Below are positions 1-19,213 of a DNA stretch of 64,000 nucleotides, piece by piece (position 1 is the first letter of the stretch; each line of letters starts with the position of its first letter). Where the stretch lies: NCBI GenBank assembly GCA_009773165.1, contig WOUZ01000001.1, positions 682,001 through 746,000 of the forward strand, read 5' to 3'. The stretch comes from Bacteroidota bacterium (GTDB taxonomy: Bacteria > Bacteroidota > Bacteroidia > Bacteroidales > F082). A program made the translations under genes and the position numbers. The notes beneath the pieces were generated by a model. The model was not told the DNA's origin. It was given only the letters and a program-made list of their open reading frames with translations, and ran no database searches.

Positions 1-212
1 TCCACTGAACCAAGCATCTGGTCCATGATGCTATTGGTGTAATCAATAATTTCCTGCTTGCTGTTCCAGATTTCTTCCTTTGTGCCACCTATATTTCGAT
101 AGTCGTGCCGAATAAAAGTTGCCCAGGTTTCAATATCCCCTTTGAGATAAGTGTTCCAATAGGTATCGAGCCAATTAGCCAACTCTTGTTTTAATGCTGG
201 AGTTACTTTCAT
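1..212 (-). CDS. NTF2/SnoaL-like domain protein, 5' part (runs off window)
   Basis: About 70 codons are readable on the minus strand, starting MKVTPALKQELANWLDTYW and including the stretches GDIETWATFI and YRNIGGTKEEIW. This resembles the start of an NTF2/SnoaL-like cone fold. From memory of related Bacteroidota proteins, such a domain often forms the N-terminus of a larger histidine kinase or related signalling protein; that is inference because the rest lies outside the window. The ATG is 3 bases after the stop of the upstream membrane kinase, so it is the last visible gene of the 16-kb co-directional array. No catalytic residues can be assigned. Confidence 0.6.
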   Translation of the reverse strand, partial: MKVTPALKQELANWLDTYWNTYLKGDIETWATFIRHDYRNIGGTKEEIWNSKQEIIDYTNSIMDQMLGSV

Positions 213-215
213 CCG

Positions 216-1610
216 TTAATAGTATTTGATTGGAATTTGAATAATAAACACACTTCCTTTCCCTTGCTCAGTCTCTACTATAAGTTCCCCGCCATGCGCT
301 TTCACAATATCATACGCCAAACTCAATCCCAATCCGGTGCCTTGTCCGGTGGGTTTGGTTGTAAAAAAGGGCTGAAATATTTTGTTCATAATTTCCTCCG
401 GAATACCGTTTCCATTGTCTTTTACTGAGATTTCAATGCTTTCAATGAGGTTTTTAGTAGAAATGGTAACTGTAGGCTCGTAGTTATCCAACTCGGCCAT
501 ACTTCTCTTCTTCTCAGCAACTGCATAAAAAGCATTGTTGATTAAATTCAATAAAACCCTTCCAATATCCTGTGGAATGGTATTGATTTCTGGCAAAAAC
601 GCATCAAATTCAGTTTTGAAATCAGCATTAAAAGAATTGTCTTTTGCCCGTATTCCATGAAATGCCAAGCGTAAATACTCGTCGCATAAAACATTTATAT
701 CGGTTAATTCTTTCTGTCCGTTATTAGTGCGGCTGTGTTGGAGCATGCCTTTTACGATGGCATCAGCACGTTTGCCATGATGAAGAATTTTTTCTTCGTT
801 GATGGCAATATCATTTGCTATGGCCTTAATATCTTCCAGATTACCTGCATCCAGCTCTTCTTTGAGTTCTGAGATCAACTCCATATTGACTTCGGAGAAA
901 TTATTGACAAAGTTGAGTGGGTTTTGTATTTCATGAGCAATGCCGGCTGTGAGCTCACCGAGAGATGCCATTTTCTCGGATTGGATGAGTTGGGATTGAG
1001 TGGCAATCAGGTCTGCATTCTTCTTCTGTACACTTTCGAGAGCCCTGTTTTTACTGTTTTCATAAACAAGCAGGATAAAAAAGATGGTAACATTTGTTCC
1101 TACCAGTGAGCTAAAAAAAAACATTCGCTGTTTTTCCTGATCATATCCTATTTGCAAAGGGCCGATTGCTGATTCATAAATTAAAAATATGGTTGTCATC
1201 ATTACTGAGATGATTACCCACCAGACAGCGGGCTTTTTGCCAAGAATCAACATGGCAACTGCCGGCAATAAAAAGAATGCAGCCGGAGCGGGTGCCATCA
1301 AACCACCCTGGAAGTATGCCTGGATTAAAAAGCTTACTGCATGCTGTGAAAGAAACAGGTGAGCCGCTACAGTTTTGGATAAGCCATTTTTATAAAGATA
1401 CAGTAATAGGATGTTAATTGCTGCATTTGCAAAAAGCAGGTAAGCAAGTACTGCAATGTTAATCTCAATTGCCAGGTTAATTCCTAGCAGGTCCGACAAG
1501 GCAGCAATAAGCAAAACGGATATAAAAATCCTTTCTGTTCTCAGATTATCAGTATCAGAACTGAGCCATGCCGGCAAAAAGTAATTAACAAGTTTAGCTA
1601 CCATTTTCAC
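216..1610 (-). CDS. Membrane-bound sensor histidine kinase
   Basis: 464 residues. The N-terminal 185 residues carry about six hydrophobic helices joined by short loops, with no large extracytoplasmic domain, so the sensor is the membrane part itself. A short coiled linker (about 186-208) leads to a HisKA domain with the phospho-acceptor H226 in GELTAGIAHEIQNPLNFV. The ATPase domain shows the N box (LINNAFYAV, about 356), the G1 box DNGNGIP (398-404) and the G2 box GTGLGLSLAYDIV (about 424). All residues needed for autophosphorylation are present. It has no receiver domain. Its start overlaps the end of the preceding Pyr4-like gene by 17 bases, which suggests translational coupling. The kinase module is almost the same as in four other genes of this window; the partner response regulator must be encoded elsewhere. 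Confidence 0.93.
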   Translation of the reverse strand: MKMVAKLVNYFLPAWLSSDTDNLRTERIFISVLLIAALSDLLGINLAIEINIAVLAYLLFANAAINILLLYLYKNGLSKTVAAHLFLSQHAVSFLIQAYFQGGLMAPAPAAFFLLPAVAMLILGKKPAVWWVIISVMMTTIFLIYESAIGPLQIGYDQEKQRMFFFSSLVGTNVTIFFILLVYENSKNRALESVQKKNADLIATQSQLIQSEKMASLGELTAGIAHEIQNPLNFVNNFSEVNMELISELKEELDAGNLEDIKAIANDIAINEEKILHHGKRADAIVKGMLQHSRTNNGQKELTDINVLCDEYLRLAFHGIRAKDNSFNADFKTEFDAFLPEINTIPQDIGRVLLNLINNAFYAVAEKKRSMAELDNYEPTVTISTKNLIESIEISVKDNGNGIPEEIMNKIFQPFFTTKPTGQGTGLGLSLAYDIVKAHGGELIVETEQGKGSVFIIQIPIKYY

Positions 1611-2280
1611 TAGATTTTAAAAGTCCTAATAAAGTTCCGTGCCGTTTCCAAAGAATATAAATAAAAACGTTATCCAGCATAAAACAACTTACACCAAGCA
1701 ATTGAACAAACTGGTTTTCAGGATAAAAAATAAACATTGAAACGGTTATTAAACCGGTTCCCAGCATTCTTGACCATGCCAGAAGCATTGAGAACTTAGC
1801 CGTATCCTTTGTTTGAAACAAAAGGAAAACGCATTGCATCGACAAAACCACGTTGATAATATATCCTGAATTTGCACCAATCATTGTATCGTAACCCTCG
1901 TTCATATATGTATAGGAGAATAAAATCCAAAAGGCAAAATTGATCAGGCTAAAAAGGATAAAATGCTTTTTTGTTTCTGAATTCATTGGTTGCTTGGTTC
2001 CATAACGGAGCACCGAATAGAAAATGAAGCAATCGAGCAGAAAGGCCGCCTGGTAGCTCAAAGAAAATAATAAGCCCGTATTGGGATGGTATATGAAACT
2101 CCAGACAAACTCCCACCCTATATTGGCTCCGGCTACATAAGCGGGCATTTCAACGAATTTTTTCTTTCTGATTTCCAATACCAATATGGCATATGCAACC
2201 ACCCAGAGCAAACATCCTACTCCATTGAACAAAAGGCCTATAGATGAGTATTCATCAAAATTTATCAACGGTTGAAACAT
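1594..2280 (-). CDS. Seven-helix membrane protein resembling Pyr4/PaxB-type terpene cyclases
   Basis: 228 residues, nearly all hydrophobic, with about seven helices. What is visible: the segment EMPAYVAGANIGWEFVW with E57, LLDCFIFYSVLRYG with D83, and near the C-terminus MLDNVFIYILWKR with D203. Length and topology match the Pyr4/PaxB/AtmB family of transmembrane terpene cyclases (usually about 240 residues), known from fungal meroterpenoid pathways and bacterial drimentine synthesis. In Pyr4 the catalytic acids are a Glu near residue 63 and an Asp near 218; E57 and D203 sit at comparable places. The assignment comes from motif recall, not a search. It lies 14 bases after an MpaB/Lcp-like oxygenase gene and overlaps the following kinase. 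A general membrane sensor is the main alternative. Confidence 0.6.
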   Translation of the reverse strand: MFQPLINFDEYSSIGLLFNGVGCLLWVVAYAILVLEIRKKKFVEMPAYVAGANIGWEFVWSFIYHPNTGLLFSLSYQAAFLLDCFIFYSVLRYGTKQPMNSETKKHFILFSLINFAFWILFSYTYMNEGYDTMIGANSGYIINVVLSMQCVFLLFQTKDTAKFSMLLAWSRMLGTGLITVSMFIFYPENQFVQLLGVSCFMLDNVFIYILWKRHGTLLGLLKSSENGS

Positions 2281-2294
2281 GGCTGTTAACTTTT

Positions 2295-3563
2295 TTATCT
2301 ATTTGAACTGGTCCAATCCGATCTCAGCGATCTGGGAATGTAAAAATTAATGATCTTTGATTTAGTCATGTGACTGATCATATACAACGACATATGTTTG
2401 GTAAAAAACTGGAGGAGCATTGCTAACACTAGGCTATGATCAACTTTTTCCATCACATTTGCTATTCGTTTTATTTTGAGGTTTAACTTGTCGATTTTAC
2501 TTTGTTCAATTTTCGGAACATCCAATAAATCAGAAATTCTTGAACCCATCATCATTCGGATCATTGCAATATTGCTTTCGGAACTCATAATTGCCTTCGC
2601 ATTTCTGTTCTGAAATTCAAGCAGAGCTCTCATCAGGGCTGACCCTTGCTCGCTGTGGGCAATCTGATGATCCAAAATACTATAGCCCAGTTTTAAAGCA
2701 TCTGCAGAATTTGCAGGGATTATATCATCATGCAGCCCAATTATATGCCCAATCACGCGCCAGCAATGAATATAAGCTTCCTTCTCAACCGGCTCGAGTA
2801 CAATACCAAGTTGCTCCATGCCTTCCAGAATCAGAGCCGAAAATGACATTAATGTACCGGCCATATCTTCCTGGTTGATAGGCTCATCGTATTGAGACGC
2901 GTCCCAATTTTGTTTTCGCAGATGATATCTGATAACGGCATGAATCAACCTTACTTTTTGTGCAGCTACCAAACCTCTTCCATTAGGCGAGAGGCCACCG
3001 GGCGACATGGCAAACACCACAAACTGGGCTGTTTCGGCAATGCGTCGTGAAAATGTATCCATCGATCCATGTTGCTCGTCGAGCCTGGCAGTACGGTGCA
3101 AAACTTCGGCGCCCTTGGCACAGGCATAGCATTCGGGAAGAGATTTATTGGAGAGCAAAAGACTAATCCAGATTCCATGTCGTATATAAACCTGCTGGCC
3201 CAGATCAATTAAATCCTGATCGGCCCAATCGGGCAGAATGGCAGTTTTGCTAAAATATTCTTTTATTTCAGCAGGAGCATCAGCTGGCAGGTGGTCGCTA
3301 TCCCTTGTTATCATTCCAAATAAATGATTGATCTGGGCTACTTCATTCTTTGCCATAATTTTTGCAACGGTGCTGTCGGCCAGATCATCGGTGAGTTTAC
3401 GTTTTTTTTCAAGAAAATCTACCGTCCAGTTCTCAGATGCTTTTGTATTCATAGCTGAGACTTTTTTCAGCGCCCGCTTTTTTAGTGCTTTCGACTTTAT
3501 AACAAAAGCCAATGAAAAAAGCAGGAAAATAACTAATACAGATAAAAGAAGAATGTTTACCAT
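2295..3563 (-). CDS. DUF2236 oxygenase, MpaB/rubber-oxygenase (Lcp) family, membrane-anchored
   Basis: 422 residues. Residues 3-22 form a single hydrophobic anchor and the rest is soluble. The family hallmark is clear: FSRRIAETAQFV (R174, E177, T178), then KVRLIHAVIRYHL with H208, then QEDMAGTLMSFS with T237, and YIHCWRVIGHIIGL. In the latex-clearing protein Lcp the haem iron ligand is a histidine 30 residues after a conserved Thr, itself four after an Arg; the same spacing is seen here (R174, T178, H208). Lcp cleaves polyisoprene and fungal MpaB cleaves a farnesyl side chain, so an isoprenoid substrate is likely but unproven. It starts 19 bases after a propeller kinase and is followed 14 bases later by the Pyr4-like gene. 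Confidence 0.85.
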   Translation of the reverse strand: MVNILLLSVLVIFLLFSLAFVIKSKALKKRALKKVSAMNTKASENWTVDFLEKKRKLTDDLADSTVAKIMAKNEVAQINHLFGMITRDSDHLPADAPAEIKEYFSKTAILPDWADQDLIDLGQQVYIRHGIWISLLLSNKSLPECYACAKGAEVLHRTARLDEQHGSMDTFSRRIAETAQFVVFAMSPGGLSPNGRGLVAAQKVRLIHAVIRYHLRKQNWDASQYDEPINQEDMAGTLMSFSALILEGMEQLGIVLEPVEKEAYIHCWRVIGHIIGLHDDIIPANSADALKLGYSILDHQIAHSEQGSALMRALLEFQNRNAKAIMSSESNIAMIRMMMGSRISDLLDVPKIEQSKIDKLNLKIKRIANVMEKVDHSLVLAMLLQFFTKHMSLYMISHMTKSKIINFYIPRSLRSDWTSSNR

Positions 3564-3582
3564 ACTATTTCGAATTTTTGGA

Positions 3583-6500
3583 TTAATACGTATTTGATAG
3601 AAAAAGAGTAATTGTAAAATTTGTAAAAGACGGTTTACCTATACCTGAATCTACTTCAGATTCCACTTTCAACTCCCCTCCATGCGCCTTTATAATATCG
3701 TAAGCCAAAGATAAGCCAAGCCCCGTTCCCTCACCAGTTGGTTTGGTAGTAAAGAAGGGCTGAAATATCTTTTTCTTATTTTCCTCCGGAATGCCGTTCC
3801 CATTATCTTTTACTGAGATTTCAATGCTTTCGCCAAGGCTTTTGGTAGAGACGGTGACGGTCGGTTCATAATGGTTTTCCAAATCTGGCAGGTTTCTCTG
3901 CTTCTCAGCAACTGCATAAAATGCGTTGTTAATCAAATTAAGCAAAACCCTTCCAAAATCCTGCGGAATGATATTGATTTCTGGCAAAGACACATCAAAT
4001 TTAGTTTTGAAATCAGCGTTAAATGTTTTGTCTTTGGCTCTTAAACCATGATAGCTCAACCGCAAATATTCATCAGCCAAAGCATTGATATCAGTGGGTT
4101 CTTTTACACCACTGCTTCTGCGACTATGTTGGAGCATGCCTTTCACGATGGCATCGGCGCGTTTACCATGTTCAAGAATTTTTTCCTCGTTGATGGCAAT
4201 ATCATCCGCAATGGCCTTAATTTCTTCCAAATTTCCGGCTTCAATCTCTTCCTTCAGTTCTGCAATCAACTCTACATTTACTTCCGAAAAATTATTGACA
4301 AAGTTCAACGGGTTTTGGATTTCATGGGCAATGCCGGCGGTAAGTTCACCGAGGCTGGCCATCTTTTCGGATTGGATGAGTTGGGATTGGGTGGATTTGA
4401 GTATTTCGTGCGCTTTCCCGAGCTCGAGATATGCTTTTTCAATTTCTTTACCCTGTGCCAACTCGCGTTCCCGGTTACGTTCTTTTTCGGCTTTTAGCAA
4501 ACGTTGCCGCTGGAAACGGTCGATACCATATACCAGGACAAGAAGCAAAAGTCCGTAAATACAATATGCCCACCATGTTTTCCACCAGGGAGGTGTAATG
4601 GTGATAACCATACTTTTTTGAGCAACGGAACCAACGTCGTTGACGGCTTTTATGTGCAATATATATTTCCCATGTGGCAGGTTAAAAAAAGTGGCTTTGT
4701 GTTCGGTTCCAATATCCCGCCATTCGTTATCATAATTTGCCAGTTTATACAGATATTTTATTTCCCCGAGGCTTCTATAATCAATGGCATCAAACTCAAA
4801 GGAAATGGTGTTTTGCGAGTAACTTAGTTTTAAACTGTTGGTTTCCCAAATAGGCACTGTTAATACAGTTCCATCTTCAACCACAATCTCCTGGCTGCCT
4901 ATTTTAAAATTAGTAAAGTTCAATAAGGGTGCTGTTCTTTCATCAATCAGCTCATCGGGTTTAAATGAGTAATAGCCCTTTTTCCCTCCCAGGAACAAAC
5001 GACCATCTTTGGTACTGATATTCTTAAACCACAAATCAGCAAGAGGTTCTACTCCCTGGGCCAATCCAAATATTTTTTCAGCATCCCGTTCCTTGTTTAT
5101 TTTTATGATGCCTTTGCCGATGCTTAACCATATATTTTCCTTAGCATCAACCACCATGCCCGATACGCTTTCTATTCCTTCGGGAAAGACCTGGGAAGTA
5201 TATTTCTTAAAGATATTCTTTTGCTTATCCAGAAAATACAGTCCGGCAGTACCGGCAGCCCAGATTTTACCGGTTTCATCAATGCATATTGTCGTTATTT
5301 GTCCGCCTAAAGCATATCGTTTAAACTTTTCCGTTTTGGTGTCCAATGCATATATGTCAACATCGGTACCTATCCATATAGTACCATTTTTAGCTTGTGC
5401 AAAACTGTTTATGTGCCCTGCGCCGATGCTAAGGCTGTCCTTGGGGTTATTAACGTAATTAGTGCAGCTCCCGGTTTTTGTATCCATACGCGACACCCCT
5501 GTGTGTGTGCCGATCCATAAATACTGTTGCCGGTCAAAAAACAAGGCATGTGTTGCATCATCCAAAAGGCTGGCAGGATTGTTTTTATCGTGGCGAATGC
5601 TTGTAAATTGTTCCGTTTTGATATTGAATTTCAATAAGCCATTAAAGTGGGTAGCCAGCCAGATATTTCCTTCTCCATCACCCTTCATATCCATCACATT
5701 GCTTATAGACTGGCTTTTTGCAGCCCGGGAGTCTGGTTTAAATAATTTTTGCTGGTTGTTCAATAAATTCTTCCTGATAAGTGCGCTGTCTGATTGTATC
5801 CACACTATATTTTTGTCTTCCTCGTAATAAAAAGCAGTTGCTTTTGCATTTAGTGAAACAAAAGGAATGGTAGTACTTGAAAAATCAACGTTATAAAGAT
5901 TGCCATTAAAACCGGCGGATATCCACAGTAAGCCATCTTTTGAAGAAAAAGCCCGGATAGCAGTACTATCTTTAAAACCGGTTAATGTATCTTTTGCAAA
6001 CCGGTTAGTTTTATCATTGCTAACAAGACCATAATGGATTGTCGTTTTCAGCAAAGGATCGTACATATTTATGCCCCCGGTTGTAGAGCCAGTCCATAAT
6101 CTTCCATTAGCATCTTCGGTTATAAAACTCACAAAATCGAACTCACTTCCTGTAAAAGGAGGACGGCTTACCCTTTCAGGGTAGGCCGGATCATAATAAC
6201 CATAATGCGTAAACTTTCCGGTGGCTCTGTCCAATGTCTGTAATCCACTTCCCCTGGTGCAGACCCAAAGATTATTTTTACTGTCTTCGTAAATATCAAA
6301 TACATTATTATCTGAAAGGCTATTGAGGTTAGCAGGGTCATGCTTAAAGATTATAAAATTACCAGTGGTTTTGTCGAAACGGGCTAATCCGCCGGGGCCG
6401 TCTTTCTTCCCTGCAAAGGGTTCACCCCATCCGATCCATAAAGCACCATTCTTGGCTTCGAAGATCGCATTAATAGTAAAAAAATTATCCGAAGTGTTCA

Positions 6501-7026
6501 CATAGTTGAAAAGTTCATCTATTATATAATGAGTAAACTTTCCTGTTGCCGGGTTAAATTGATCAAGGGTACGGTTTGTACCGATCCATAAAATTCCGGA
6601 ACGGTCAGTTGTAATGGCAAATATGGTATCATTGCCCAGGCTGGCGGGATCTCTGGGGTCGTGCCTGAAATGAGTAAATATTTTTGTTTCAGGATCAAAA
6701 CGGTCAAGTCCCGAACCAAATGTACCTATCCAGATATTACCTGTTGAATCAATAGAAACAACACTAGCCATATTACTTGCCAGGGAATTGGGGTTATCAC
6801 TGTTATGGCTGTATGTAGTGAGCTTTTTCCCGTCATAACGCTGCAATCCCTTTTGTGCTGAAGTAAACCAGATAAAACCTTTTTGGTCCTGTACGATCGA
6901 AAAAACAGGGCCAAAACCATATTTTGTCCCATCCAATACCTTATTAAATTTTGGTTGCTGAGAAAAAGCAATGCCTGTTGAAAAGAGAAAGAGGACAACA
7001 AGCAGTAGTATTATATAATTTTTCAT
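3583..7026 (-). CDS. Propeller-type sensor histidine kinase (Reg_prop, Y_Y_Y, HisKA, HATPase)
   Basis: 1147 residues. A signal peptide (1-22, ending GIAFSQ) precedes an exported sensor of some 700 residues built from repeats with IWIGT or LWIGT strands (Reg_prop), expected to fold as two beta-propellers. A Y_Y_Y domain follows (about 735-805, with LYKLANYDNEWRDIG), then one transmembrane helix (about 816-836, after PPWWKTWW), a charged coiled coil, and HisKA with H901 in GELTAGIAHEIQNPLNFV. G1 is DNGNGIP and G2 is GTGLGLSLAYDII. Unlike the hybrid regulator at 24-28 kb it has no receiver or AraC domain, so it needs a separate response regulator. The C-terminal tail is slightly longer and different from the sister kinases (GKPSFTNFTITLFL). 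It is followed 19 bases later by the MpaB-like gene. Confidence 0.93.
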   Translation of the reverse strand: MKNYIILLLVVLFLFSTGIAFSQQPKFNKVLDGTKYGFGPVFSIVQDQKGFIWFTSAQKGLQRYDGKKLTTYSHNSDNPNSLASNMASVVSIDSTGNIWIGTFGSGLDRFDPETKIFTHFRHDPRDPASLGNDTIFAITTDRSGILWIGTNRTLDQFNPATGKFTHYIIDELFNYVNTSDNFFTINAIFEAKNGALWIGWGEPFAGKKDGPGGLARFDKTTGNFIIFKHDPANLNSLSDNNVFDIYEDSKNNLWVCTRGSGLQTLDRATGKFTHYGYYDPAYPERVSRPPFTGSEFDFVSFITEDANGRLWTGSTTGGINMYDPLLKTTIHYGLVSNDKTNRFAKDTLTGFKDSTAIRAFSSKDGLLWISAGFNGNLYNVDFSSTTIPFVSLNAKATAFYYEEDKNIVWIQSDSALIRKNLLNNQQKLFKPDSRAAKSQSISNVMDMKGDGEGNIWLATHFNGLLKFNIKTEQFTSIRHDKNNPASLLDDATHALFFDRQQYLWIGTHTGVSRMDTKTGSCTNYVNNPKDSLSIGAGHINSFAQAKNGTIWIGTDVDIYALDTKTEKFKRYALGGQITTICIDETGKIWAAGTAGLYFLDKQKNIFKKYTSQVFPEGIESVSGMVVDAKENIWLSIGKGIIKINKERDAEKIFGLAQGVEPLADLWFKNISTKDGRLFLGGKKGYYSFKPDELIDERTAPLLNFTNFKIGSQEIVVEDGTVLTVPIWETNSLKLSYSQNTISFEFDAIDYRSLGEIKYLYKLANYDNEWRDIGTEHKATFFNLPHGKYILHIKAVNDVGSVAQKSMVITITPPWWKTWWAYCIYGLLLLVLVYGIDRFQRQRLLKAEKERNRERELAQGKEIEKAYLELGKAHEILKSTQSQLIQSEKMASLGELTAGIAHEIQNPLNFVNNFSEVNVELIAELKEEIEAGNLEEIKAIADDIAINEEKILEHGKRADAIVKGMLQHSRRSSGVKEPTDINALADEYLRLSYHGLRAKDKTFNADFKTKFDVSLPEINIIPQDFGRVLLNLINNAFYAVAEKQRNLPDLENHYEPTVTVSTKSLGESIEISVKDNGNGIPEENKKKIFQPFFTTKPTGEGTGLGLSLAYDIIKAHGGELKVESEVDSGIGKPSFTNFTITLFLSNTY

Positions 7027-7034
7027 TGCCGGGT

Positions 7035-7118
7035 TTATTTTACAGGTAAATAAATAGTAAACATTGCTCCTTCATTTGTAATTATTTCAATTCTTATTTC
7101 CCTGCCATGTGCTTTAAC
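7035..7118 (-). pseudogene. Remnant: last 27 codons of a histidine kinase
   Basis: The minus strand reads VKAHGREIRIEIITNEGA followed by MFTIYLPVK and a stop at 7035-7037. This is the C-terminal end of the same kinase family (compare VKAHGGEIKIETKENEGT in the kinase at 12925-13968), with one Gly of the usual HGGE motif changed to Arg. Homology stops abruptly at about 7119, where an upstream TGA and unrelated sequence begin. The remnant lies between two intact family members in the same orientation. This is what an unequal crossover or deletion within the array would leave. Found by reading the gap; too short for ORF callers. Confidence 0.8.
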
Positions 7119-7222
7119 GACTCATAAATCGTCTGACACACTGATTGGCAAGGATTTATGGATTTTACTGATTTTATTAAGTTATGCATCTGTGCAATTT
7201 TTTATTCTCATTTATCCGTGAT
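7119..7222. repeat. Probable dispersed intergenic repeat
   Basis: This stretch between the kinase remnant and the stop of the TPR kinase is non-coding. It contains near-periodic words such as GGATTTATGGATTTTACTGATTTT and CATTTATCCGTGATTC. Similar sequences built on CGTGAATC/GGATTT words are common between genes in Bacteroidales genomes; that comparison is from memory. It marks the break point of the decayed kinase copy. Confidence 0.3.
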
Positions 7223-9211: not shown

Positions 9212-10149
9212 TTTGAATTTTGTTGAATGGGTAAATGAAACCTAAAAACTGAGCCAAGATCTTCTTTCGTTTCCACTTTCAACTCCCCACCGTGCGCTTT
9301 CACAATATCGTAACTCAAACTCAATCCCAATCCCGTTCCCTCACCAGTTGGTTTGGTTGTGAAAAAAGGCTGAAATATTTTATTTTTGATTTCCTCCGGA
9401 ATACCTTTTCCATTATCTTTCACTGATATTTCAATACTTTCACCGAGGTTTTTAGTGGAGACGGTGACGGTCGGTTCGTAATGGTTGTCTAAATCTGACT
9501 GGTTTGATAAACTTGTCAGATTTCTCTGCCGTTCCGCAACCACGTAGAAAGCATTGTTTATCAAATTAAGTAAAACCCTTCCGATATCCTGAGGGATTAT
9601 TTCAACTTTTGGTAGATTGGGGTCAAATTCAGTTTTGAAATCAGCATTGAATGTTTTGTCTTTTGCACGCAGTCCATGATAACTTAACCGTAAATACTCA
9701 TCAGCCAGGGCATTGATGTCGGTGGGTTCTTTTGTACCATTGCTGCTTCGGCTATGTTGCAGCATACCTTTTACAATGGAATCAGCTCGTTTTCCGTGAT
9801 GAAGAATTTTTTCTTCGTTGATAGCAATATCATCAGCAATGGCTTTAATATCTTCCAGATTGCCTGCTTCAAGCTCCTCTTTCAGTTCTGCAATCAACTC
9901 CATATTGACTTCGGAGAAATTATTCACAAAGTTGAGCGGGTTTTGAATTTCATGTGCAATGCCTGCAGTGAGTTCTCCGAGAGAGGCCATTTTCTCGGAT
10001 TGGATGAGTTGGGATTGGGTATTCTTCAGTTCAACATAGGCTTTTTCAATTTCTTTAGCCTGGGCCAGTTCTTTTTGCTGTCCGCGTTCCCTTTCTTTTC
10101 GAATGGTTCTTTCTTTTTGGAATTGATGGACCAACCGGATTAAAGCCAT
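9208..10149 (-). CDS. Histidine kinase module: C-terminal part of a frameshifted propeller kinase
   Basis: 313 residues as an isolated frame, but the same frame stays open and homologous back to about 10356, encoding the end of a Y_Y_Y domain (LENYDKNWSAASKERKAFY), PPWWQTWWAYLIYG and a transmembrane helix. It is therefore the second half of the gene that begins at 12917; one base is missing around 10357-10358. Seen in this part: linker coiled coil, HisKA with H66 (numbered from the internal ATG), G1 DNGKGIP and G2 GTGLGLSLSYDIV, all complete. If ATG 10149 is really used, the product would be a soluble kinase without sensor. It shares long identical DNA runs with the TPR kinase next to it, including a degenerate copy of the in-frame palindrome. 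Confidence 0.85.
   Translation of the reverse strand: MALIRLVHQFQKERTIRKERERGQQKELAQAKEIEKAYVELKNTQSQLIQSEKMASLGELTAGIAHEIQNPLNFVNNFSEVNMELIAELKEELEAGNLEDIKAIADDIAINEEKILHHGKRADSIVKGMLQHSRSSNGTKEPTDINALADEYLRLSYHGLRAKDKTFNADFKTEFDPNLPKVEIIPQDIGRVLLNLINNAFYVVAERQRNLTSLSNQSDLDNHYEPTVTVSTKNLGESIEISVKDNGKGIPEEIKNKIFQPFFTTKPTGEGTGLGLSLSYDIVKAHGGELKVETKEDLGSVFRFHLPIQQNSK
9491..9523. repeat. Degenerate copy of the 33-bp in-frame palindrome
   Basis: Arms AAATCTGACTGGTTT and AAACTTGTCAGATTT flank the loop GAT at the same codons as the perfect copy at 7494-7526. Two of 15 pairs are mismatched. The encoded residues are TSLSNQ in place of TGLINL. The shared position indicates either duplication of the kinase after insertion or gene conversion. 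Confidence 0.7.
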
Positions 10150-10262
10150 TAGAAGAAAACCATAAATCAGGTACGCCCACCAGGTTTGCCACCAGGGTGG
10201 TAAAATGCGAATAGTAAACGAAATACCTTCTTCATTCCAAACTCCATCGGCATTGGATGCTT

Positions 10263-12917
10263 TTACCCGGAAAATATATTTACCAGGTGATAGATTGGTG
10301 TAGAAGGCTTTTCTTTCTTTAGATGCTGCCGACCAATTCTTGTCGTAGTTTTCCAGCTATACTGGTTGTCTTCGGAACGCAGGTAATGCAGGGCCACAAA
10401 ATCAAAACCCAGATTCTTTTGCCAATATTTCAACTCGATAGAATTGGTATAAGCCACCGACTGTTTAAAAATTACTCCATCGGGTTTTGAATAGAGCGAA
10501 TCGTTGATGGTAATCTTTGTAATCACAATGGAAGGAAGGGTGGTGTCTTTCTTCAGTAGCTTGGCTGGTAAAATATGGTTAAGACCATGAGTTCCACCAA
10601 TCCATATACCGCCATTACTGGTTGCAATTGTTACATACCGCCTGTCATAAGGCTGAAAACCGTCTTTTTCATAGTAAGAAACAAACGATTTTGTTTCCGG
10701 ATCGAATACCGATAAGCCTCTTTGCGTGGGCAGCCAAAATCTTCCGAATTCATCTTTAACAATTCGTCCATTATGTCCAGAAGCTAAATCGTTTTGCAGC
10801 AAGCCCTTTGATTCGTCAATGGTTGTAATAATGCCCTTTTCAACATCTACGGATACCAGTCCGCCACTTGAATATGTTGCAAACCAAGGTTCTCCATTTT
10901 TGTCTGTTGTAAAAAAATTGGTAGAAGAAAGTTTGGAATTCCTGAAAACAGTAAAGTTGTTTTGATCGTAATCATATAAATTTAAACCTCCATCTGTTCC
11001 AATCCATAATCGCTGCTTACCGTCTTCGGCAATAAAGCTTATTTCATTACTGCTAATAGAGCTACTGTCTCCGGAGACAGGCAAATAATGAGTAAACCCT
11101 TCTTCTCCCTCATTCAAACGGTACAAACCAAACTTATTATCCCCTCTGTCGCCAAGCCAAATGTTTCCTCTGGAATCCTGATAAAAGGCATCAATTCGTT
11201 TACTGCTTAGAGAAGCAGTGTTTTTACCATCGGGAAGAAAGCTTTTCAAAATCCTGCCGGTATTTTTATCCAATACAAAAACACCTTTATCCCTAATGGA
11301 AAGCCATAGTCGTTGCTGTTTATCGGGGAAAATAAATGTACAAGTGTTGATTTCTTTTGGACTGTAGAAGTATCGTTTAAAACTGCCGGTAGATTCCTGA
11401 AATTGGTTCAGTCCATTTTGGGTGCCCACCCATATTATCCCATCCGCATCTTCCTGCACGGTTATAATGTCATTGTTGCTGATAGATGATGAATTTGACG
11501 GATTGTTCCTGAATACTTTAAAATTATCCTGATCTGCCTGGTACAATGAGAGTCCGTTGGCGGTACCTATCCACAATCTTTTTTTACTGTCTTCAAATAA
11601 ATACTGGATACTATCCGATGGCAATCCTTCAGGTTCACCAGCCCGGTAACGAAATAAATCCATCTGTTGTTTCTTAGGTGCCTGTTTATATAAGCCGGGC
11701 CGGGTGCCCAGCCATAACAATCCTGTACGATCTTCTAAAGACAAATAAGGAAATGGTCTTTGAGGCAAAGGATTACCGGGGAGATTGAAATTGTAATCAT
11801 AGAAGCTGAATGTTTTATTAGCAAACTGATAATGAATAAAAAAATGCTTTTGTTGCAAACGGGAGATGGCCTGAAACAAAATGCCCTCTTTGTTTTGAGC
11901 AGTGACGAAGAAAACGCTTATTTCGGTAATTCCCTTTTGATAGGGAAGATGGTCACTGCCATAGGTAAAGGTTTGGATGTTATCAGAAACAGGGTCTATC
12001 AATGATAGAATCCCTTTCCTGTGGACTACCCAATATTGCCCGTTCAAATCTTCAACAGCATAAAAAACAGAATCAGCTATTCCACTCGCGATTCCCGGTT
12101 GGTAAACATAACTTTTAACAATTTTCTGGTTTTTACTGTCAAAAACATACAGCCCATGAGTGCCTGTGAGTAGTAATCTGTTTTCACTTGCTTTGCTGAG
12201 TTGCCTGATGGTATCTGCTTTACCTGACAGCATAATATCCTCTCCTGCAGGGATAACGATTTCAAAACTATCTTTCTGCAGGTTCAGCCCATTGAGATTG
12301 TTTTTTTCATCCAGCGCCCAAATAGTACCGGATGATTCAATTGTATTAAAATTTCTCCAATATATACTTCTTAAATTTGCAGCGAAATCCGTATACTGTT
12401 TAATGATACCTGTTTCCGGGTTAAGACGGAAAGTGGTAAACTGTGTATCCAAAAATGATCCTGCAATGAACCAAATATCTCCGGCTTCGTCTTCAAATAG
12501 CAGAGAACTAAACATTTGGTTGCCACCTTTCGTAGCATTGCCGGCAGGGTAAAAATTCCGGAATATCTCTTTTAAAGGATCAAATGATGTGATTCCACTA
12601 CTTTCACCAGAAATCCAAATCTTTCCATCCCTTGCTTTTAAGAGACCTCCAAATTGGCTTCTCATGTGTAAACTTGTCGAATCAGTTTTATCTAAAGCTG
12701 CTCTATACACTTTAAAGTTATAGCCATCGTATTTTACGAGTCCATTTTGGGTGCCGAACCAGATAAAGCCTTTGTCGTCCTGGAGGGGTGATATTGCAAC
12801 CTCTTCGGGTAAGCCTTCGGCCACGCCGTATTTTTCAAACGGAATTTTATGTTGCTGGGCAAAACCAAGGCTTGCAGCAACTGTAAGAAGGATGGTGAGT
12901 GTTATTAATTTTATCAT
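10263..12917 (-). CDS. Propeller sensor half of a frameshifted histidine kinase
   Basis: I place the start at 12917, giving MIKLITLTILLTVAASLGFA, a clear signal peptide and no overlap with the preceding stop at 12925; the longer frame to 12977 would run into the upstream kinase. About 840 residues of Reg_prop repeats follow (LWIGTRPGL, RLWIGTANGLSLY, IIWVGTQNGLNQF and others). The frame derails in the Y_Y_Y domain: after NQY it reads SWKTTTRIGRQ and stops, whereas dropping one base at 10357-10358 gives LENYDKNWSAASKERKAFY, as expected. A restored gene would run from 12917 to 9208 and encode about 1236 residues. A real mutation and a sequencing or assembly error cannot be told apart from this sequence alone. 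Confidence 0.88.
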   Translation of the reverse strand: MIKLITLTILLTVAASLGFAQQHKIPFEKYGVAEGLPEEVAISPLQDDKGFIWFGTQNGLVKYDGYNFKVYRAALDKTDSTSLHMRSQFGGLLKARDGKIWISGESSGITSFDPLKEIFRNFYPAGNATKGGNQMFSSLLFEDEAGDIWFIAGSFLDTQFTTFRLNPETGIIKQYTDFAANLRSIYWRNFNTIESSGTIWALDEKNNLNGLNLQKDSFEIVIPAGEDIMLSGKADTIRQLSKASENRLLLTGTHGLYVFDSKNQKIVKSYVYQPGIASGIADSVFYAVEDLNGQYWVVHRKGILSLIDPVSDNIQTFTYGSDHLPYQKGITEISVFFVTAQNKEGILFQAISRLQQKHFFIHYQFANKTFSFYDYNFNLPGNPLPQRPFPYLSLEDRTGLLWLGTRPGLYKQAPKKQQMDLFRYRAGEPEGLPSDSIQYLFEDSKKRLWIGTANGLSLYQADQDNFKVFRNNPSNSSSISNNDIITVQEDADGIIWVGTQNGLNQFQESTGSFKRYFYSPKEINTCTFIFPDKQQRLWLSIRDKGVFVLDKNTGRILKSFLPDGKNTASLSSKRIDAFYQDSRGNIWLGDRGDNKFGLYRLNEGEEGFTHYLPVSGDSSSISSNEISFIAEDGKQRLWIGTDGGLNLYDYDQNNFTVFRNSKLSSTNFFTTDKNGEPWFATYSSGGLVSVDVEKGIITTIDESKGLLQNDLASGHNGRIVKDEFGRFWLPTQRGLSVFDPETKSFVSYYEKDGFQPYDRRYVTIATSNGGIWIGGTHGLNHILPAKLLKKDTTLPSIVITKITINDSLYSKPDGVIFKQSVAYTNSIELKYWQKNLGFDFVALHYLRSEDNQYSWKTTTRIGRQHLKKEKPSTPIYHLVNIFSG

Positions 12918-12924
12918 GGATTGG

Positions 12925-13968
12925 TTATATAGGTAATTGAATGATGAATGTTGTTCCCTCATTTTCTTTTGTTTCAATTTTTATTTCCCCACCATGCGCC
13001 TTTACAATATCATATGCCAATGAAAGGCCAAGCCCCGTTCCCTCACCAGTTGGTTTGGTTGTAAAGAAAGGCTGGAAAATTTTGTTTTTGATTTCTTCCG
13101 GAATGCCGTTCGCATTATCTTTCACTGAGACTTCAATGCTTTCACCCAGGCTTTTGGTAGAAAAAATGACGGTAGGTTCGTAATTGCTGTCCAAATCTGA
13201 CAAGTTTCTCTGCTTCTCAGCAACTGCATAAAAAGCATTGTTGATTAAATTCAACAAAACCCTTCCAATATCCTGCGGAACGATATTGATTTCTGGCAAC
13301 GACGCATCAAATTCGGTTTTGAAATCAGCATTAAAGGAATTGTCTTTTGCCCGTATACCATGAAATGCCAGGCGTAAATACTCATCGCATAAAACATTAA
13401 TGTCGGTTAACTCTTTCTGACCGTTGCTGCTTCGGCTATGTTGCAGCATTCCTTTCACGATGGCATCAGCACGCTTGCCGTGTTGAAGAATTTTTTCTTC
13501 GTTGATAGCAATATCATCAGCAATGGCCTTAATATCTTCCAGATTGCCTGCTTCAAGCTCCTCTTTCAGTTCGGCGATCAACTCCACATTAACTTCAGAG
13601 AAATTATTCACGAAGTTCAACGGGTTTTGAATTTCATGGGCAATACCTGCAGTGAGTTCGCCGAGGGAGGCCATTTTTTCGGATTGAATGAGTTGTGCTT
13701 GCGCCGCTTTAAGTTCATTAAGCGATTTGGTTAATGCAGTATTGGTTTCTTCGATGGCTTTTCTTTTTTGCTCGAGTTCTTCTATGGTTTCTTCGAGTAA
13801 AATGGCAGTAGTGCGTTTTACCTTTTCGGTGCGATCGAGCTTGAATGCTAAGATGACCAGTTCTTTATCAGCATCCTTCAAAGATTTATTGATCAAAGCT
13901 TTCTGATCATCAGAGATGCTTTCAATCTGCTGAAGAATGTCAAGGATATTTTGAAGATGTTGATTCAT
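12925..13968 (-). CDS. Cytosolic histidine kinase linked to FIST sensors
   Basis: 347 residues without signal peptide or membrane helix. The first 95 residues are charged and helical (SDDQKALINKSLKDADKEL, later ETIEELEQKRKAIEETNTAL), a dimerising coiled coil. HisKA has H111 in GELTAGIAHEIQNPLNFV. The G2 box GTGLGLSLAYDIV is normal, but the G1 box reads DNANGIP where all sister kinases have DNGNGIP or DNGKGIP, a Gly-to-Ala change at a conserved nucleotide-binding position. The gene starts immediately after the stop of the second FIST gene with no gap, so the FIST proteins are likely its separate sensory partners. FIST domains are commonly fused to or encoded with kinases and diguanylate cyclases. 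Confidence 0.92.
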   Translation of the reverse strand: MNQHLQNILDILQQIESISDDQKALINKSLKDADKELVILAFKLDRTEKVKRTTAILLEETIEELEQKRKAIEETNTALTKSLNELKAAQAQLIQSEKMASLGELTAGIAHEIQNPLNFVNNFSEVNVELIAELKEELEAGNLEDIKAIADDIAINEEKILQHGKRADAIVKGMLQHSRSSNGQKELTDINVLCDEYLRLAFHGIRAKDNSFNADFKTEFDASLPEINIVPQDIGRVLLNLINNAFYAVAEKQRNLSDLDSNYEPTVIFSTKSLGESIEVSVKDNANGIPEEIKNKIFQPFFTTKPTGEGTGLGLSLAYDIVKAHGGEIKIETKENEGTTFIIQLPI

Positions 13969-15102
13969 TTACTTCTCTTTTAAAGCCACACAACAAGCTG
14001 TTAATCCATGCAACTCAAGGTTTCCATTCGTAGCCCTTGCAAGCTCTGATGTGCTGAACATGCCGGCAATCGGCGCATTCCATACTTTCTGAATACCCTC
14101 AATTTCTTCACTTATCAATGGCCCCAATGAAATAAGCCTGCCTGCGCAACTGAATAATAGCAGGGCATCTGCTTCCGGCATTTCAGTGGCTTTTAAATCC
14201 TCACATTCATTGATTACTTTTTCTATCACATCAAAATCGGGCGGAATGGAAAACCGCACTTTAGATCCCTCCGGCACATTGCCGTTGCAGTAAAAAGAAT
14301 GGTCGTTCCAATCCACCACTAACCCGACACGGATTATTGAATTTCCGTTTTCTCTCTGAAGTTGTAAAGGCAAGGTAACGGAATGTTGCATTGCAAAATT
14401 TTCGGGTGTAACATCTTTAAGTCCGCCATATTTTACCACCAGATCCAATACTGGAGTATCTTCTATTGTAAAAACATGGTTGCCTTCGCTTTTCGTAACT
14501 GTCTTTTCCGTTCCTACAGCACTCCATCCATGTGTGGCCCGGCCCTTTATGCTGATTTTGTCTTCATCGATAGCTATTGCCACGATGCCTTTGTTGCTAA
14601 TTCTACCGTTGGTGAAAACAAAATTTTCCTTAAAAGCAAAATCATCTCCTGCCATACCCCCATATACATTACCCTTTTTGCCAAGGATGTCTTCAAAACC
14701 ATGCAGCAATTCTTCGGCATCTGTCTGCATATTACTGCCAGCCATGAGAAAACAGGGATGGGTAAATTTTTCCAATGCTTGTTTTGCCATGGCCTTTGCA
14801 GTTTGCTGGTAATTATTTTCGGAAAATTCTTCAAAATGAATAGTGAAGTATGCCGGATTCATATCGAGCAACATGATGGCAATTTCACCGGAACTGATTC
14901 CTTCCCCCGTAAACTCTCCATTTGTTGTGGCACCATATACCGAAATACCTGTCTCGTCGAGCAAGCTGCACAAAGCATCAATGTCCTGTTTTACTGAAAG
15001 AAAGACGATGGCAAGCGTTGGTTTAAAACCATCTTGCATGCTTTTATCTAAACTGATCTTAATTTCGGCGGTAGAATTTCCTTTGATTGACTTTGCTTTC
15101 AT
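13969..15102 (-). CDS. FIST-domain signal sensor (second copy)
   Basis: 377 residues, soluble, without signal peptide. It spans a FIST_N domain (about 25-215, with LAIVFLSVKQD, GATTNGEFTGEG and NVYGGMAGDDF) and a FIST_C domain (about 220-365, ending LHGLTACCVALKEK). FIST proteins are intracellular ligand sensors thought to bind small molecules such as amino acids. It is a paralogue of the protein encoded just upstream (15125-16264); the two share GRATHGWSAVGTEKTVTKSEGNHVFT-like stretches. The gap between them is 22 bases, and the kinase gene follows without a gap. There is no output domain, so it must act through a partner, most simply the adjacent cytosolic kinase. Confidence 0.9.
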   Translation of the reverse strand: MKAKSIKGNSTAEIKISLDKSMQDGFKPTLAIVFLSVKQDIDALCSLLDETGISVYGATTNGEFTGEGISSGEIAIMLLDMNPAYFTIHFEEFSENNYQQTAKAMAKQALEKFTHPCFLMAGSNMQTDAEELLHGFEDILGKKGNVYGGMAGDDFAFKENFVFTNGRISNKGIVAIAIDEDKISIKGRATHGWSAVGTEKTVTKSEGNHVFTIEDTPVLDLVVKYGGLKDVTPENFAMQHSVTLPLQLQRENGNSIIRVGLVVDWNDHSFYCNGNVPEGSKVRFSIPPDFDVIEKVINECEDLKATEMPEADALLLFSCAGRLISLGPLISEEIEGIQKVWNAPIAGMFSTSELARATNGNLELHGLTACCVALKEK

Positions 15103-15124
15103 GGGTTTCTTGTTTTTAATAGTA

Positions 15125-16264
15125 CTATTTTTCTTTCAATGCCACACAGCAGGTGGTGAGGTTGTGCATTTCCAGATTTCCGCCGGTGGCCCTTGCCAGT
15201 TCTGCATTACTGAACATACCGGCCATAGGCACCTTCCAGACGTTTTTTAATCCTTCAATTTCCATGTTCATCATGGGGCCGAAAGCAAGGATTCTCCCTG
15301 CACAACTGAATAAGATCAGCGCATCGGCATCGGGCATTTCGTTTTCCTGCATCTCCGTGGCACTTTTGATCACTTTTTCCATCACATCGAAATCAGGAGG
15401 TATCGAGAATCGTATTTTGGAACCCTGAGGCACTGATCCACTGCAATGGAATGACCGGTCGCTCCAGTCTATGACGAGACCTGGACGCATGACCGGGTCA
15501 CCTTTTTCACGTTGCAGTTGTAAAGGCAAATTTGCAGCGATCTCAAACACCAATCCGGTATTGTCGGGTGATACATTTTCAATTCCTCCATATTTTGCAG
15601 TAAGATCCAAAACAGGAATATCATCAACAGTAAACACATGATTTCCTTCGCTTTTTGTCACTGTTTTCTCTGTTCCCACAGCCTTCCAGCCACAAGTTGC
15701 CCTTCCCTTGATGAGGATTTTATTTTCGTCCAGTGCAAGGGCAACAATTCCCTGCTTGCTTTCCATCCCGTTTGTAAAAACGAATTGTTCAGTGAATGTA
15801 TAGTCATCGGATGCCATTCCACCATATACATTCACCTCCTTGCCGGCAACGTCTTCAAACCCAAAAAGCAATTGCTCCGCATCAGTTTCCATGTGAGAAC
15901 CTGAAATAAGGAAGGCAGGTTTTGAGAATTTCACCTTCGCTTTTTCAGCAATGCCCGACGCGGTCTCCCTGTAATTTTTCTCCGGAAATTCCTCCAGGTA
16001 GATTTGAAAATGATCCCTGTTCATATCCAGAAGCAGCATCACAACTGAATCTTTTTCTGTTACTTCATCTATAAACTCTCCACATGTAGTGGCACCAAAT
16101 ATGGCAATGCTATGGACATCAAGTAATTCAGCGATCACTTTTCTGTCCTGATTTACCGATAAAAACACAATAGCCAGTGTCGGCATGAATCCGTCGGCCA
16201 TACTTTCAGCAAGTGCAGTTTTTATTTCTTCGGTTGAAATTCCTTTAATTGATTTTGCCTTCAT
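15125..16264 (-). CDS. FIST-domain signal sensor (first copy)
   Basis: 379 residues, soluble. The domain order is FIST_N then FIST_C, with KAKSIKGISTEEIKTALAES at the start, GATTCGEFIDE, NVYGGMASDDYTF and the C-terminal LEMHNLTTCCVALKEK. It is the first gene of the co-directional array that extends to the left edge of the window. A promoter-like pair of boxes lies 24-54 bases upstream. Divergence from its neighbour is clear at the protein level, especially around residues 215-250 and 300-330, so the two copies may sense different ligands or form a heteromer. The role as sensory subunit of the downstream cytosolic kinase is inference from gene order. Confidence 0.9.
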   Translation of the reverse strand: MKAKSIKGISTEEIKTALAESMADGFMPTLAIVFLSVNQDRKVIAELLDVHSIAIFGATTCGEFIDEVTEKDSVVMLLLDMNRDHFQIYLEEFPEKNYRETASGIAEKAKVKFSKPAFLISGSHMETDAEQLLFGFEDVAGKEVNVYGGMASDDYTFTEQFVFTNGMESKQGIVALALDENKILIKGRATCGWKAVGTEKTVTKSEGNHVFTVDDIPVLDLTAKYGGIENVSPDNTGLVFEIAANLPLQLQREKGDPVMRPGLVIDWSDRSFHCSGSVPQGSKIRFSIPPDFDVMEKVIKSATEMQENEMPDADALILFSCAGRILAFGPMMNMEIEGLKNVWKVPMAGMFSNAELARATGGNLEMHNLTTCCVALKEK

Positions 16265-16396: not shown

Positions 16397-17779
16397 CTAT
16401 CGGTTTGAGTTCTCAGATAATTCATCAAGCTTGATCTGATTTATCTCAAGTACGTCAACCCGCTTTGTATGCTTATCAAAATGCAGAAACTGTATGACTA
16501 TAAGCATGAAACCTGCAAAAACAGCAAAAGCCAGCACTACATATTCCCATGCCATAAATGATTTTAAAGGCCCAAGCAAAGCCGCACCAGATGCCAGACC
16601 CAGGTTAGAAATGGCCATATATAAAGTGAACTGGGTAGCCGATATTCTTTTCCAGCAAAGTTGCATGGCCGAGGCAAATACAGCGATGGTTGTAAACACA
16701 ATCAAGGTATAAAGCAAGCCAATAAAGCCAATAAAGATATACTGGTTGTCCCAATAATCTCTGAGAAAGAATGCAGACACTACCAATAAGATTAGTAAAA
16801 TCAGATAAATGCTCATCATTCTTACTTTACCAAAAAAATCAATGAAAGCACCGGCTACAAACATGCCCAAAATGCCTGAAACCAGCTGTATCAAAGAAAA
16901 AGTCTGAGAATAATCACCATCGGTCCACCCCAATTCCTGTACGGTAAAAACAGGCAGCATGGCATCTATCAATCCCCTGCCAATTGAAAAACTAAATGCA
17001 GCAACCCCCATAATGAGGCTGACTGGTAATATAAACACCCTTGCCAGGCTTGTAAACAGTTCTTTGAAGCTTTGAACCTGTATGCTTGCAGCAACTTCTG
17101 ACACCTTGCCTTTAGTCCATGGCAACCTTTTTTCGCCTGCTCTTTCTCTGAAGAAGAGAGGGAATAACAGTATCAGAAACACAAACAAAGAAAAAAAGAC
17201 AATGGCATGAAAAAAACTGTAAGCGTTGATAATAGAGATACCTATTGCAACTGAGGCTGAAATTCCTATGGTTTTTGAGCCCCACATAAGCCCATTGGCC
17301 CTTGCCTGTTGCTCCTCCGGAAGTATGTCGATAGCAAGTCCGTCAACGGCAATATCCTGAAAAACTGCAAACAAGCCTACAAAGAAGCTGAAAAGTTTGA
17401 GCATAAACATATTATTCAGCGGATCGGCAATGAAAGCCATTGACAGAAAACTGATAGCCAACCCCAGCTGTCCAAACAATATCCAGGGTCGTCTGCGGCC
17501 CATTGCAAGGAAAGTAAACCTGTCCATTAATGGCGCTGCCAGAATTTTAAAGCTCCAGGGTAAGATACCAATAGCAACAAAAGCGCCTATTTCGACGGCG
17601 CTTTTCCCATTCATAGCAAGCCATGCAGGTATTCCAAACCTCAATAAGCCTTCGGGTAAGCCTTGAGCAAAATACAAAAATGAAAATGATAAATAGCGCA
17701 AAGGCGCATTTTCTGAGAGTGAAGGAAACTTTCCTTCAGCAGTTCGTTTAAAGGGATTGTAAGTATCAGGTTTTTTCAT
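16397..17779 (-). CDS. MFS transporter, AmpG-like
   Basis: 460 residues with about 12 transmembrane helices. The N-terminal part reads YFAQGLPEGLLRFGIPAWL, then PWSFKILAAPLMDRFTFLAMGRRRPWI, the pattern of the AmpG/SLC33 branch of the major facilitator superfamily (conserved APLMDR and the basic cluster GRRRPW in the first cytosolic loop). AmpG itself imports anhydro-muropeptides, but many members of this branch have unknown substrates, so no substrate is assigned. A hydrophilic loop around residues 210-235 separates the two six-helix halves. It is not tightly linked to either neighbour: there are 99 bases to the upstream DUF418 gene and 132 to the FIST gene downstream. Confidence 0.85.
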   Translation of the reverse strand: MKKPDTYNPFKRTAEGKFPSLSENAPLRYLSFSFLYFAQGLPEGLLRFGIPAWLAMNGKSAVEIGAFVAIGILPWSFKILAAPLMDRFTFLAMGRRRPWILFGQLGLAISFLSMAFIADPLNNMFMLKLFSFFVGLFAVFQDIAVDGLAIDILPEEQQARANGLMWGSKTIGISASVAIGISIINAYSFFHAIVFFSLFVFLILLFPLFFRERAGEKRLPWTKGKVSEVAASIQVQSFKELFTSLARVFILPVSLIMGVAAFSFSIGRGLIDAMLPVFTVQELGWTDGDYSQTFSLIQLVSGILGMFVAGAFIDFFGKVRMMSIYLILLILLVVSAFFLRDYWDNQYIFIGFIGLLYTLIVFTTIAVFASAMQLCWKRISATQFTLYMAISNLGLASGAALLGPLKSFMAWEYVVLAFAVFAGFMLIVIQFLHFDKHTKRVDVLEINQIKLDELSENSNR

Positions 17780-17878
17780 GAGTATAGTGAGTTTTTAAAG
17801 TATTCTTAAAATTGAAATATTTAGTTTTACCTTCTACTTCCTTAATTTTACCTGTTTTTTATCTGACTTAAAAAATGT

Positions 17879-19195: not shown

Positions 19196-19213
19196 TGATT
19201 TTTTTCTAAGTAA

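Follow-up and report, generated by a model that had tools for sequence, protein, structure and literature searches.

The minus-strand gene cluster at the start of a 64,000-nt window from a Bacteroidota bacterium (contig WOUZ01000001.1 of assembly GCA_009773165.1; G000:C1:682001-746000 in our numbering, where G000 is the source genome and the window is the whole stretch of DNA analyzed) raises two questions: to what do its many sensor histidine kinases signal, and what are two enzymes of isoprenoid type doing among them? Taken as a whole, the locus is probably best explained as a many-to-one two-component operon, whose receivers are encoded at its own end, together with an acquired cassette that consists of the two enzymes and a six-transmembrane-helix (6TM) sensor, the helix number being our own reading of the sequence. 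An earlier note, made from the window alone, had described ten minus-strand genes separated by 22, 0, 7, -4, 196, 19, 14, -17 and 3 bases, and this arrangement was borne out. Pfam matches confirmed the two FIST proteins, the five kinases, which combine a common HisKA/HATPase module with varying sensors (two have propellers, one TPR, one membrane helices, and one is sensorless), and the MpaB/Lcp-like and Pyr4-like genes inside the array (MPAB_Lcp_cat and Pyr4-TMTC domains), and the kinase relic placed within the 196-base gap was recovered as a 27-residue match to the C-terminus of the kinase core. Two details had to be corrected. The count of five kinases is right for the window and too low for the complete array, which holds seven cores, and propeller kinase A does not have one continuous frame, being broken near 10.27 kb, upstream of its kinase core, into open reading frames (ORFs) of 884-904 and 313 amino acids (aa); the break may reflect either a genuine frameshift or an error in the sequence. 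The genes of the array, including those past the window edge, are as follows.

15125..16264, minus strand: FIST sensor protein 1 (FIST and FIST_C; Pfam), 86% identical to the FIST protein at the same place in the relative G165
13969..15102, minus strand: FIST sensor protein 2 (FIST/FIST_C; Pfam)
12925..13968, minus strand: sensorless cytosolic histidine kinase adjoining FIST, a NosP/NosK-like arrangement (Pfam; core motifs)
9208..12917, minus strand: propeller (Reg_prop) histidine kinase A, ORFs 10263-12917 and 9208-10149 (Pfam)
7223..9211, minus strand: TPR histidine kinase (Pfam; motifs)
7027..7222, minus strand: kinase relic, C-terminal end of the HATPase core only (alignment, reading frames)
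3583..7026, minus strand: propeller histidine kinase B (Reg_prop, Y_Y_Y; Pfam; motifs)
2295..3563, minus strand: predicted MpaB/Lcp-type oxygenase (DUF2236), here MPAB (Pfam; alignment; structure match)
1594..2280, minus strand: predicted Pyr4-like transmembrane terpene cyclase (Pfam PF25129; alignment; tree)
216..1610, minus strand: 6TM-sensor histidine kinase, the sensor being residues 1-205 (996-1610; Pfam; homology)
1..212, minus strand: start of the 1026-aa SnoaL_3 histidine kinase, which continues outside the window (G000:C1:679132-682212)
C1:677785-679083, minus strand: SnoaL_3 histidine kinase of 432 aa, the seventh kinase (Pfam)
C1:677342-677722, minus strand: lone receiver (REC; Pfam)
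C1:676309-677349, minus strand: REC joined to a class III adenylate cyclase (REC-cyclase; Pfam)
C1:675347-676234, minus strand: YitT/DUF2179 protein (Pfam)

The earlier note had also stated that no response regulator or transcription factor is present, and had proposed an external regulator as the common target of the kinases. The part on response regulators was wrong because the cluster runs over the edge of the window. The unit extends from position 1 for a further ~6.7 kb on the same strand, with the rest of the 1026-aa SnoaL_3 kinase, the 432-aa SnoaL_3 kinase, the lone REC, the REC-cyclase and the YitT/DUF2179 gene in that order (gaps of 3, 48, 62, -8 and 74 bases). The full array thus counts seven kinase cores along with two FIST genes, two enzymes and two response regulators; the latter lie within 5 kb past the last gene of the window, and an external regulator was rejected, since the cluster carries its own output at its end. 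The REC-cyclase carries both the REC acceptor Asp and the cyclase residues by which a class III cyclase response regulator is recognized, with D57 of the REC and D176, K216, D220, D285, N294 and R298 of the cyclase invariant in 8 sequences. We take the six cyclase residues to have metal, adenine and transition-state roles, and D57 to be the acceptor. The protein aligns with solved class III cyclases, best with CyaB (3r5g), and as the genome holds seven matches to cyclic nucleotide-binding (cNMP-binding, CRP-type) proteins, the cyclic AMP (cAMP) that it would produce has possible readers. In a scan for signals of transcription, terminator-like sites numbered 8, against 15.0 in shuffles, and the two on the minus strand both lie within coding sequence, with none between genes; the promoter scan was uninformative (44 sites, mean of 43.0 in shuffles), and the 136 bases that precede FIST1 contain no TAnnTTTG motif.

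The association of kinases, lone REC and REC-cyclase was followed into other genomes. An alignment scan of named genomes detected at least 80 REC-cyclase loci, of which the 43 strongest (L047-L088, L091) were used, from Chitinophagaceae, Cyclobacteriaceae, Flavobacteriaceae, Hymenobacteraceae, Sphingobacteriaceae and others; L089 (42% identity) and L090 and L092-L126 (mostly REC-only matches) were dropped. Together with nine loci of the window's own family, 52 loci were counted. The lone REC was found just upstream of the REC-cyclase in 47 of them, and a kinase of the array core within 1.2 kb in 45 (upstream sequence exceeds 1.2 kb at 47 loci, which include 43 of these 45; in L054 and L067 it is 1.5-2.1 kb away). 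Two or more same-strand kinase ORFs lie upstream in 29/52 loci, with sensors that vary between loci (TPR, propeller, SnoaL/GAF-like, membrane), and FIST genes are present in 9/52, from several families. Within the family (173 genomes), full-length REC-cyclases, 66-91% identical to the window's, occur in eight genomes, its own included; G018 has a shorter match with an internal stop, in a piece with kinases, REC and cyclase, and the remaining family matches are REC-only. In G165, G042 and G170 two to three FIST genes, two to three histidine kinases, REC and REC-cyclase follow one another on one contig, and in G036 and G037 the FIST genes and the REC-cyclase are on separate contigs. Contigs of draft genomes (L007/L008, L009/L010) break between the FIST genes and REC, where kinase repeats would sit, and two kinase cores of L008 are interrupted at nearly identical positions; kinase arrays of this sort may be concealed or corrupted in assemblies from short reads. 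The proposal of one integration system fed by many sensors was supported by the conserved kinase-REC-REC-cyclase order and the similar cores. The gene order makes the lone REC and the REC-cyclase the obvious receivers, and the kinases very probably converge on them. The FIST (via the adjoining sensorless kinase), propeller, TPR, SnoaL-like and 6TM sensors would each drive their own copy of the core, the like cores would phosphorylate the same two receivers, and the output would be cAMP, read by some of the seven CRP-type proteins. Phosphotransfer and cAMP output, as well as the enzyme chemistry and ligand sensing considered below, are what we infer from sequence.

The kinase cores themselves are closely similar: identity to the query core is 80-88% for the remaining six of the array, against 53% and 51% for the nearest cores elsewhere in the genome. 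HisKA falls below Pfam's own cut-off in 6/7 copies, but none of the seven cores lacks the H, N, G1, F or G2 motif. Pairwise protein identity among the seven is 75-90%, and fourfold sites differ by 37-59%, so that the duplication is not recent and a recent amplification as the cause of the likeness was left unsupported. The likeness is probably maintained by selection or by repeated exchange, with no recent burst. In G165 a homogenized core was observed: in the core, its SnoaL kinase shares 92% identity with the FIST kinase of that array, as against 75% with the G000 orthologue, although the sensors of the two SnoaL kinases are 83% identical and the REC-cyclases of the two genomes 89%. This suggests, directly from G165, exchange between cores within an array. 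The best match lay in the core's own array for 34 of 84 cores over 27 arrays, against a mean of 2.2 in label shuffles, which ignore ancestry and were taken over all 103 cores; cores with fewer than ~215 aligned residues, cores alone in their locus and two cores outside arrays were left out of the 84. Homogenization is not general, because the remaining cores, and all of those in several Hymenobacter arrays, lack a same-array best match. In a tree of 105 cores, made by a quick method, one group of 12 unites the seven G000 cores with others from G036, G042 and G165, and the relic is up to 59% identical over the last 27 residues of the core, its best match being the FIST-adjacent kinase. The array probably grows by the grafting of sensors onto local cores and by recombination between cores.

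The second question concerns the enzyme pair. In the predicted MpaB-like protein R174, T178 and H208, which represent the active-site Arg and Thr and the proximal His expected of DUF2236 proteins, are invariant in 8 sequences, and the alignment matched the structure of a rubber oxygenase (5o1m, E 3e-29). Their spacing equals that of Arg164, Thr168 and His198 of LcpK30 (PMC5522427), and the protein differs from LcpK30 in that the distal lysine position is occupied by E177. The Pyr4-like protein is a member of PF25129 (73.4 bits, cut-off 27), and its E57, D83 and D203 are nearly invariant in 16 sequences. E57 and D203 may stand at the places expected of the catalytic Glu and Asp of Pyr4. Its single-sequence model was poor (predicted local distance difference test score of 50.8) and had seven helices, and a comparison of its alignment with solved structures gave no match at E values up to 1. 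The gene is rare, being found in 2/173 genomes of the family, in 16/395 of the class (14 over the cut-off) and, by alignment search, in 24/395 of the phylum, the last two sets sharing genomes such as G000 and G374. Bacterial Pyr4-like transmembrane cyclases already described, namely XiaH, TylF and the one encoded in the zig cluster, belong to terpenoid biosynthetic clusters (PMC13307353), whereas the window's gene lies among signalling genes.

The surroundings of other Pyr4 genes were also compared. A tree of 36 Pyr4 proteins split with 100/97 support into a clade of 19, which includes the window's protein, and a sister clade of 17; L172 (114 aa, at a contig end) was not in it, nor were L045 and G536, which both scored below the cut-off, L045 having no phmmer hit and G536 a broken frame. 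A gene was scored when a same-strand signalling gene (kinase, class III cyclase, SpoIIE or Ser/Thr kinase) lay within 2.5 kb. Such a neighbour was found for 16/19 members of the window's clade, for 1/17 of the sister clade and for 12/170 control ORFs, none of them a signalling gene, from stretches chosen arbitrarily in these genomes, 18 of the 20 regions sought having existed (clade against control, Fisher p 4e-13 by rows; counted by family, 12/13 families, p 2e-11). The sixteen neighbours are five kinases, five SpoIIE proteins, two cyclases and four giant kinase proteins, three of the latter with a cyclase and the fourth (L151) apparently ending in a SpoIIE-like domain. In a seventeenth locus (L036) the neighbour is cut by the contig end and is 46% identical to a 7TMR-SpoIIE protein. 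MPAB occurs within 2.5 kb on the same strand in 9/19 of the clade, and a flavin adenine dinucleotide (FAD) oxidoreductase or MpaB often adjoins its Pyr4 genes. Furthermore, Pyr4 lies within a run of kinases in L162 and after three kinases at a contig end in L163, and in L152 (G897) an MPAB-Pyr4 pair sits inside a tandem run of six SpoIIE proteins, a phosphatase counterpart of the window's kinase array. The loci L154-L171, the other Pyr4-like set (mostly family f85), also have recurring neighbourhoods, with no signalling genes in 16/17 rows. The earlier note had placed the enzyme pair within the signalling system and had named genomes in which the pair never occurs with kinases as a refuting case; that case was looked for and not encountered, and the association held by comparison. 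The form proposed for it did not hold, as the pair was not found in the other 51 REC-cyclase loci and travels with several output types. The pair was rejected as a core part of the array, MPAB or Pyr4 being found at just one of the 52 loci, the window's own. It therefore stands outside the array core, and probably belongs to a set of enzymes of isoprenoid type that recurs in combination with signalling proteins whose outputs are exchangeable.

What the enzymes may be joined to is indicated by the 6TM domain. In the window, the Pyr4 and 6TM-kinase genes share 17 bases of overlap. The Pyr4 gene's sister in the tree, L040 of G374 (percent identity would favour L042 by a little, 52% to 50%), overlaps a 6TM-cyclase gene by 20 bases. 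The two loci share the domain, at 30% identity with a pairwise E of 3e-26 (1e-21 in the genome search). It was found in 24/395 genomes of the class, the source genome included, and in the other 23 its output is a cyclase in 8, a kinase in 7, SpoIIE in 6 and none recognized in 2. These 23 loci were analyzed over a wider stretch in 20 cases, over 1.5 kb on each side in G308 and within L040 and L043 in G374 and G297; in four of the 20 wider stretches the 6TM queries were unmatched, and no FAD oxidoreductase, Pyr4 or MPAB was found there. A FAD oxidoreductase, whose nearest curated models are HpnE and phytoene desaturase (below their cut-offs), adjoins the 6TM gene or is one gene off in 7/23, Pyr4 in 2/23 and either in 8/23; the 6TM sensor was therefore rejected as an exclusive partner of Pyr4. 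The control stretches, 271 kb in all, yielded no FAD oxidoreductase, Pyr4, MPAB or 6TM gene at an E limit of 0.01. One genome (L221) brings together in a single run REC, REC-cyclase, FAD oxidoreductase and a 6TM-kinase with 41% full-length identity to that of the window, and two Hymenobacter REC-cyclase arrays (L081, L091) have a 6TM kinase without the enzymes. In addition, a short protein with no query match lies between or beside the FAD oxidoreductase and the 6TM protein (L219 5190-5864, L228 1686-2399); it is of membrane type by eye and perhaps takes the place of Pyr4. The MpaB-like protein, the Pyr4-like protein and the 6TM sensor would then form one acquired mobile cassette, in which the enzymes oxidize or cleave and cyclize an isoprenoid chain and the 6TM domain reads the product in the membrane. 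That the enzymes make the ligand of the 6TM sensor is the reading we prefer, although we give it somewhat less than an even chance.

Several observations weigh against the operon-plus-cassette explanation. The signalling queries came partly from Pyr4 neighbours, and the scoring therefore favours these loci; when queries from the scored locus or its near kin were left out, the count for the Pyr4 clade was 14/19 and the control was still 12/170 up to E 1. Two sister loci of the clade (L032, L034) have no signalling neighbour, L032 adjoining a FAD oxidoreductase, and some of the signalling proteins linked to Pyr4 are giant kinase-cyclases without a 6TM match. No such enzymes were seen beside the 6TM sensor in 15/23 of the other genomes, and G183, G265 and G329 carry Pyr4 and 6TM genes on different contigs. 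As to the array, the enzyme pair occurs at one of the 52 REC-cyclase loci, L084 and L088 have no kinase of the array core upstream despite ~10 kb of sequence, a minority of the cores have their best match in their own array, and FIST1 does not attain the NosP cut-off considered below.

The main rival to the preferred reading of the cassette gives the Pyr4-like protein no catalytic role. It would instead act as a co-receptor in the membrane, bind an isoprenoid or quinone and relay its own state to the signalling proteins next to it. The four kinds of output, with giant kinases that have no 6TM match in L039, L044, L151 and L153, would fit a portable receptor, as would the seven helices of the poor model. 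However, E57 and D203 are nearly invariant at the places that we expect of cyclases, and isoprenoid-type enzymes (MpaB, FAD oxidoreductase) often adjoin Pyr4, so that we consider a co-receptor unlikely, though deserving of attention. It is improbable that the enzyme pair is a mere passenger, inserted between kinases with no functional link to the array: that it was not found at the other REC-cyclase loci and that Pyr4 is rare in the family would agree with this, but the linkage to signalling runs through the whole clade even under the strict count, the gaps of the pair to its neighbours are 14 and -17 bases, and the 6TM domain is common to the window and the sister locus.

A further possibility is that the FIST genes and their kinase are a separate nitric oxide (NO)-sensing unit of NosP type that merely adjoins the array. 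In NosP-NosK operons a FIST protein is accompanied by a kinase that lacks a sensor domain (PMC12570481), and NosP-NosK-NosR adds a response regulator for cyclic di-GMP to the operon. The pairing is matched here, and the best NCBIfam match of the REC-cyclase is NosR, in the REC part only (76.9 bits, cut-off 400). Against this, the comparison with the NCBIfam NosP model, made for FIST1 only, gave 26.4 bits with a cut-off of 450; FIST1 was thus rejected as NosP by that model, and is not called NosP here. The array also differs from NosP-NosK-NosR in its two FIST genes, seven kinases and output of a REC-adenylate cyclase with a lone REC, and FIST genes precede the same REC/REC-cyclase in the 9/52 loci of several families. 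A separate unit has, in our view, a low probability; NO sensing by the FIST proteins themselves is possible. Six tandem FIST genes lie before the contig end in L007 (5796-12672, G036). Upstream of FIST1, the window carries MFS, DUF418 and DcuC genes (16397-20647; Pfam); judged from N-terminal sequence only, the three also precede the FIST genes in G037 and G042 and, with one extra gene, in G036, and two of the three do so in G165.

Still less probable is it that the kinases are insulated, each with a different regulator, and alike through recent duplication only, since despite a same-family kinase on C29 (51% in the core) that adjoins a REC protein of other make-up, with a REC 63-66% identical to that of the REC-cyclase, the fourfold sites are too divergent for proteins so alike and the position before REC/REC-cyclase is conserved in most loci. 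That C29 locus (G000:C29; L014 10960-14000 and beyond) holds the kinase, then the REC protein (66% in REC), and after it genes that resemble, by eye, an anti-sigma ATPase and its antagonist; the same kinase core is possibly wired to partner switching there.

The convergence of several sensors on one receiver is known from KinA-E and Spo0F and from the quorum kinases of Vibrio cholerae, and a REC joined to a class III adenylate cyclase from cyanobacterial CyaC. The array differs from the former in its near-copy kinases with swapped sensors in one operon and its cyclase output, and from CyaC in its separate kinases, the lone REC before the cyclase and its place in a multi-kinase operon of Bacteroidota. 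Among the literature matches listed, which left most subscription journals uncovered and were partly off-topic (several sets mainly unrelated, one apparently on a fungal marker gene of the same name), there was no account of this operon or of a link between Pyr4 or MpaB and signalling. The genome mining in PMC13307353 found 1107 bacterial Pyr4-like candidates and kept the 264 with terpenoid neighbours; its main text had no match for words beginning with bacteroid or signal. The linkage described here falls among the Pyr4-like proteins that such mining sets aside for want of terpenoid neighbours.

The linkage would suggest that enzymes whose known settings are secondary metabolism and the degradation of rubber also take part in signalling. 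More tentatively, Bacteroidota might use a self-made membrane isoprenoid as an internal signal, by means of a mobile set of MpaB-like, Pyr4-like and FAD oxidoreductase enzymes and 6TM sensors; on the same tentative footing, the 6TM outputs would be freely exchanged (kinase to REC-cyclase, cyclase, SpoIIE), so that terpenoid chemistry could be read as cAMP or as partner switching. If the many-to-one explanation is true, a recurring operon of Bacteroidota adds sensors to one cAMP switch like cards to a rack, with interchangeable cores, and crosstalk between paralogous kinases, whether avoided or exploited, would become directly testable within one operon.

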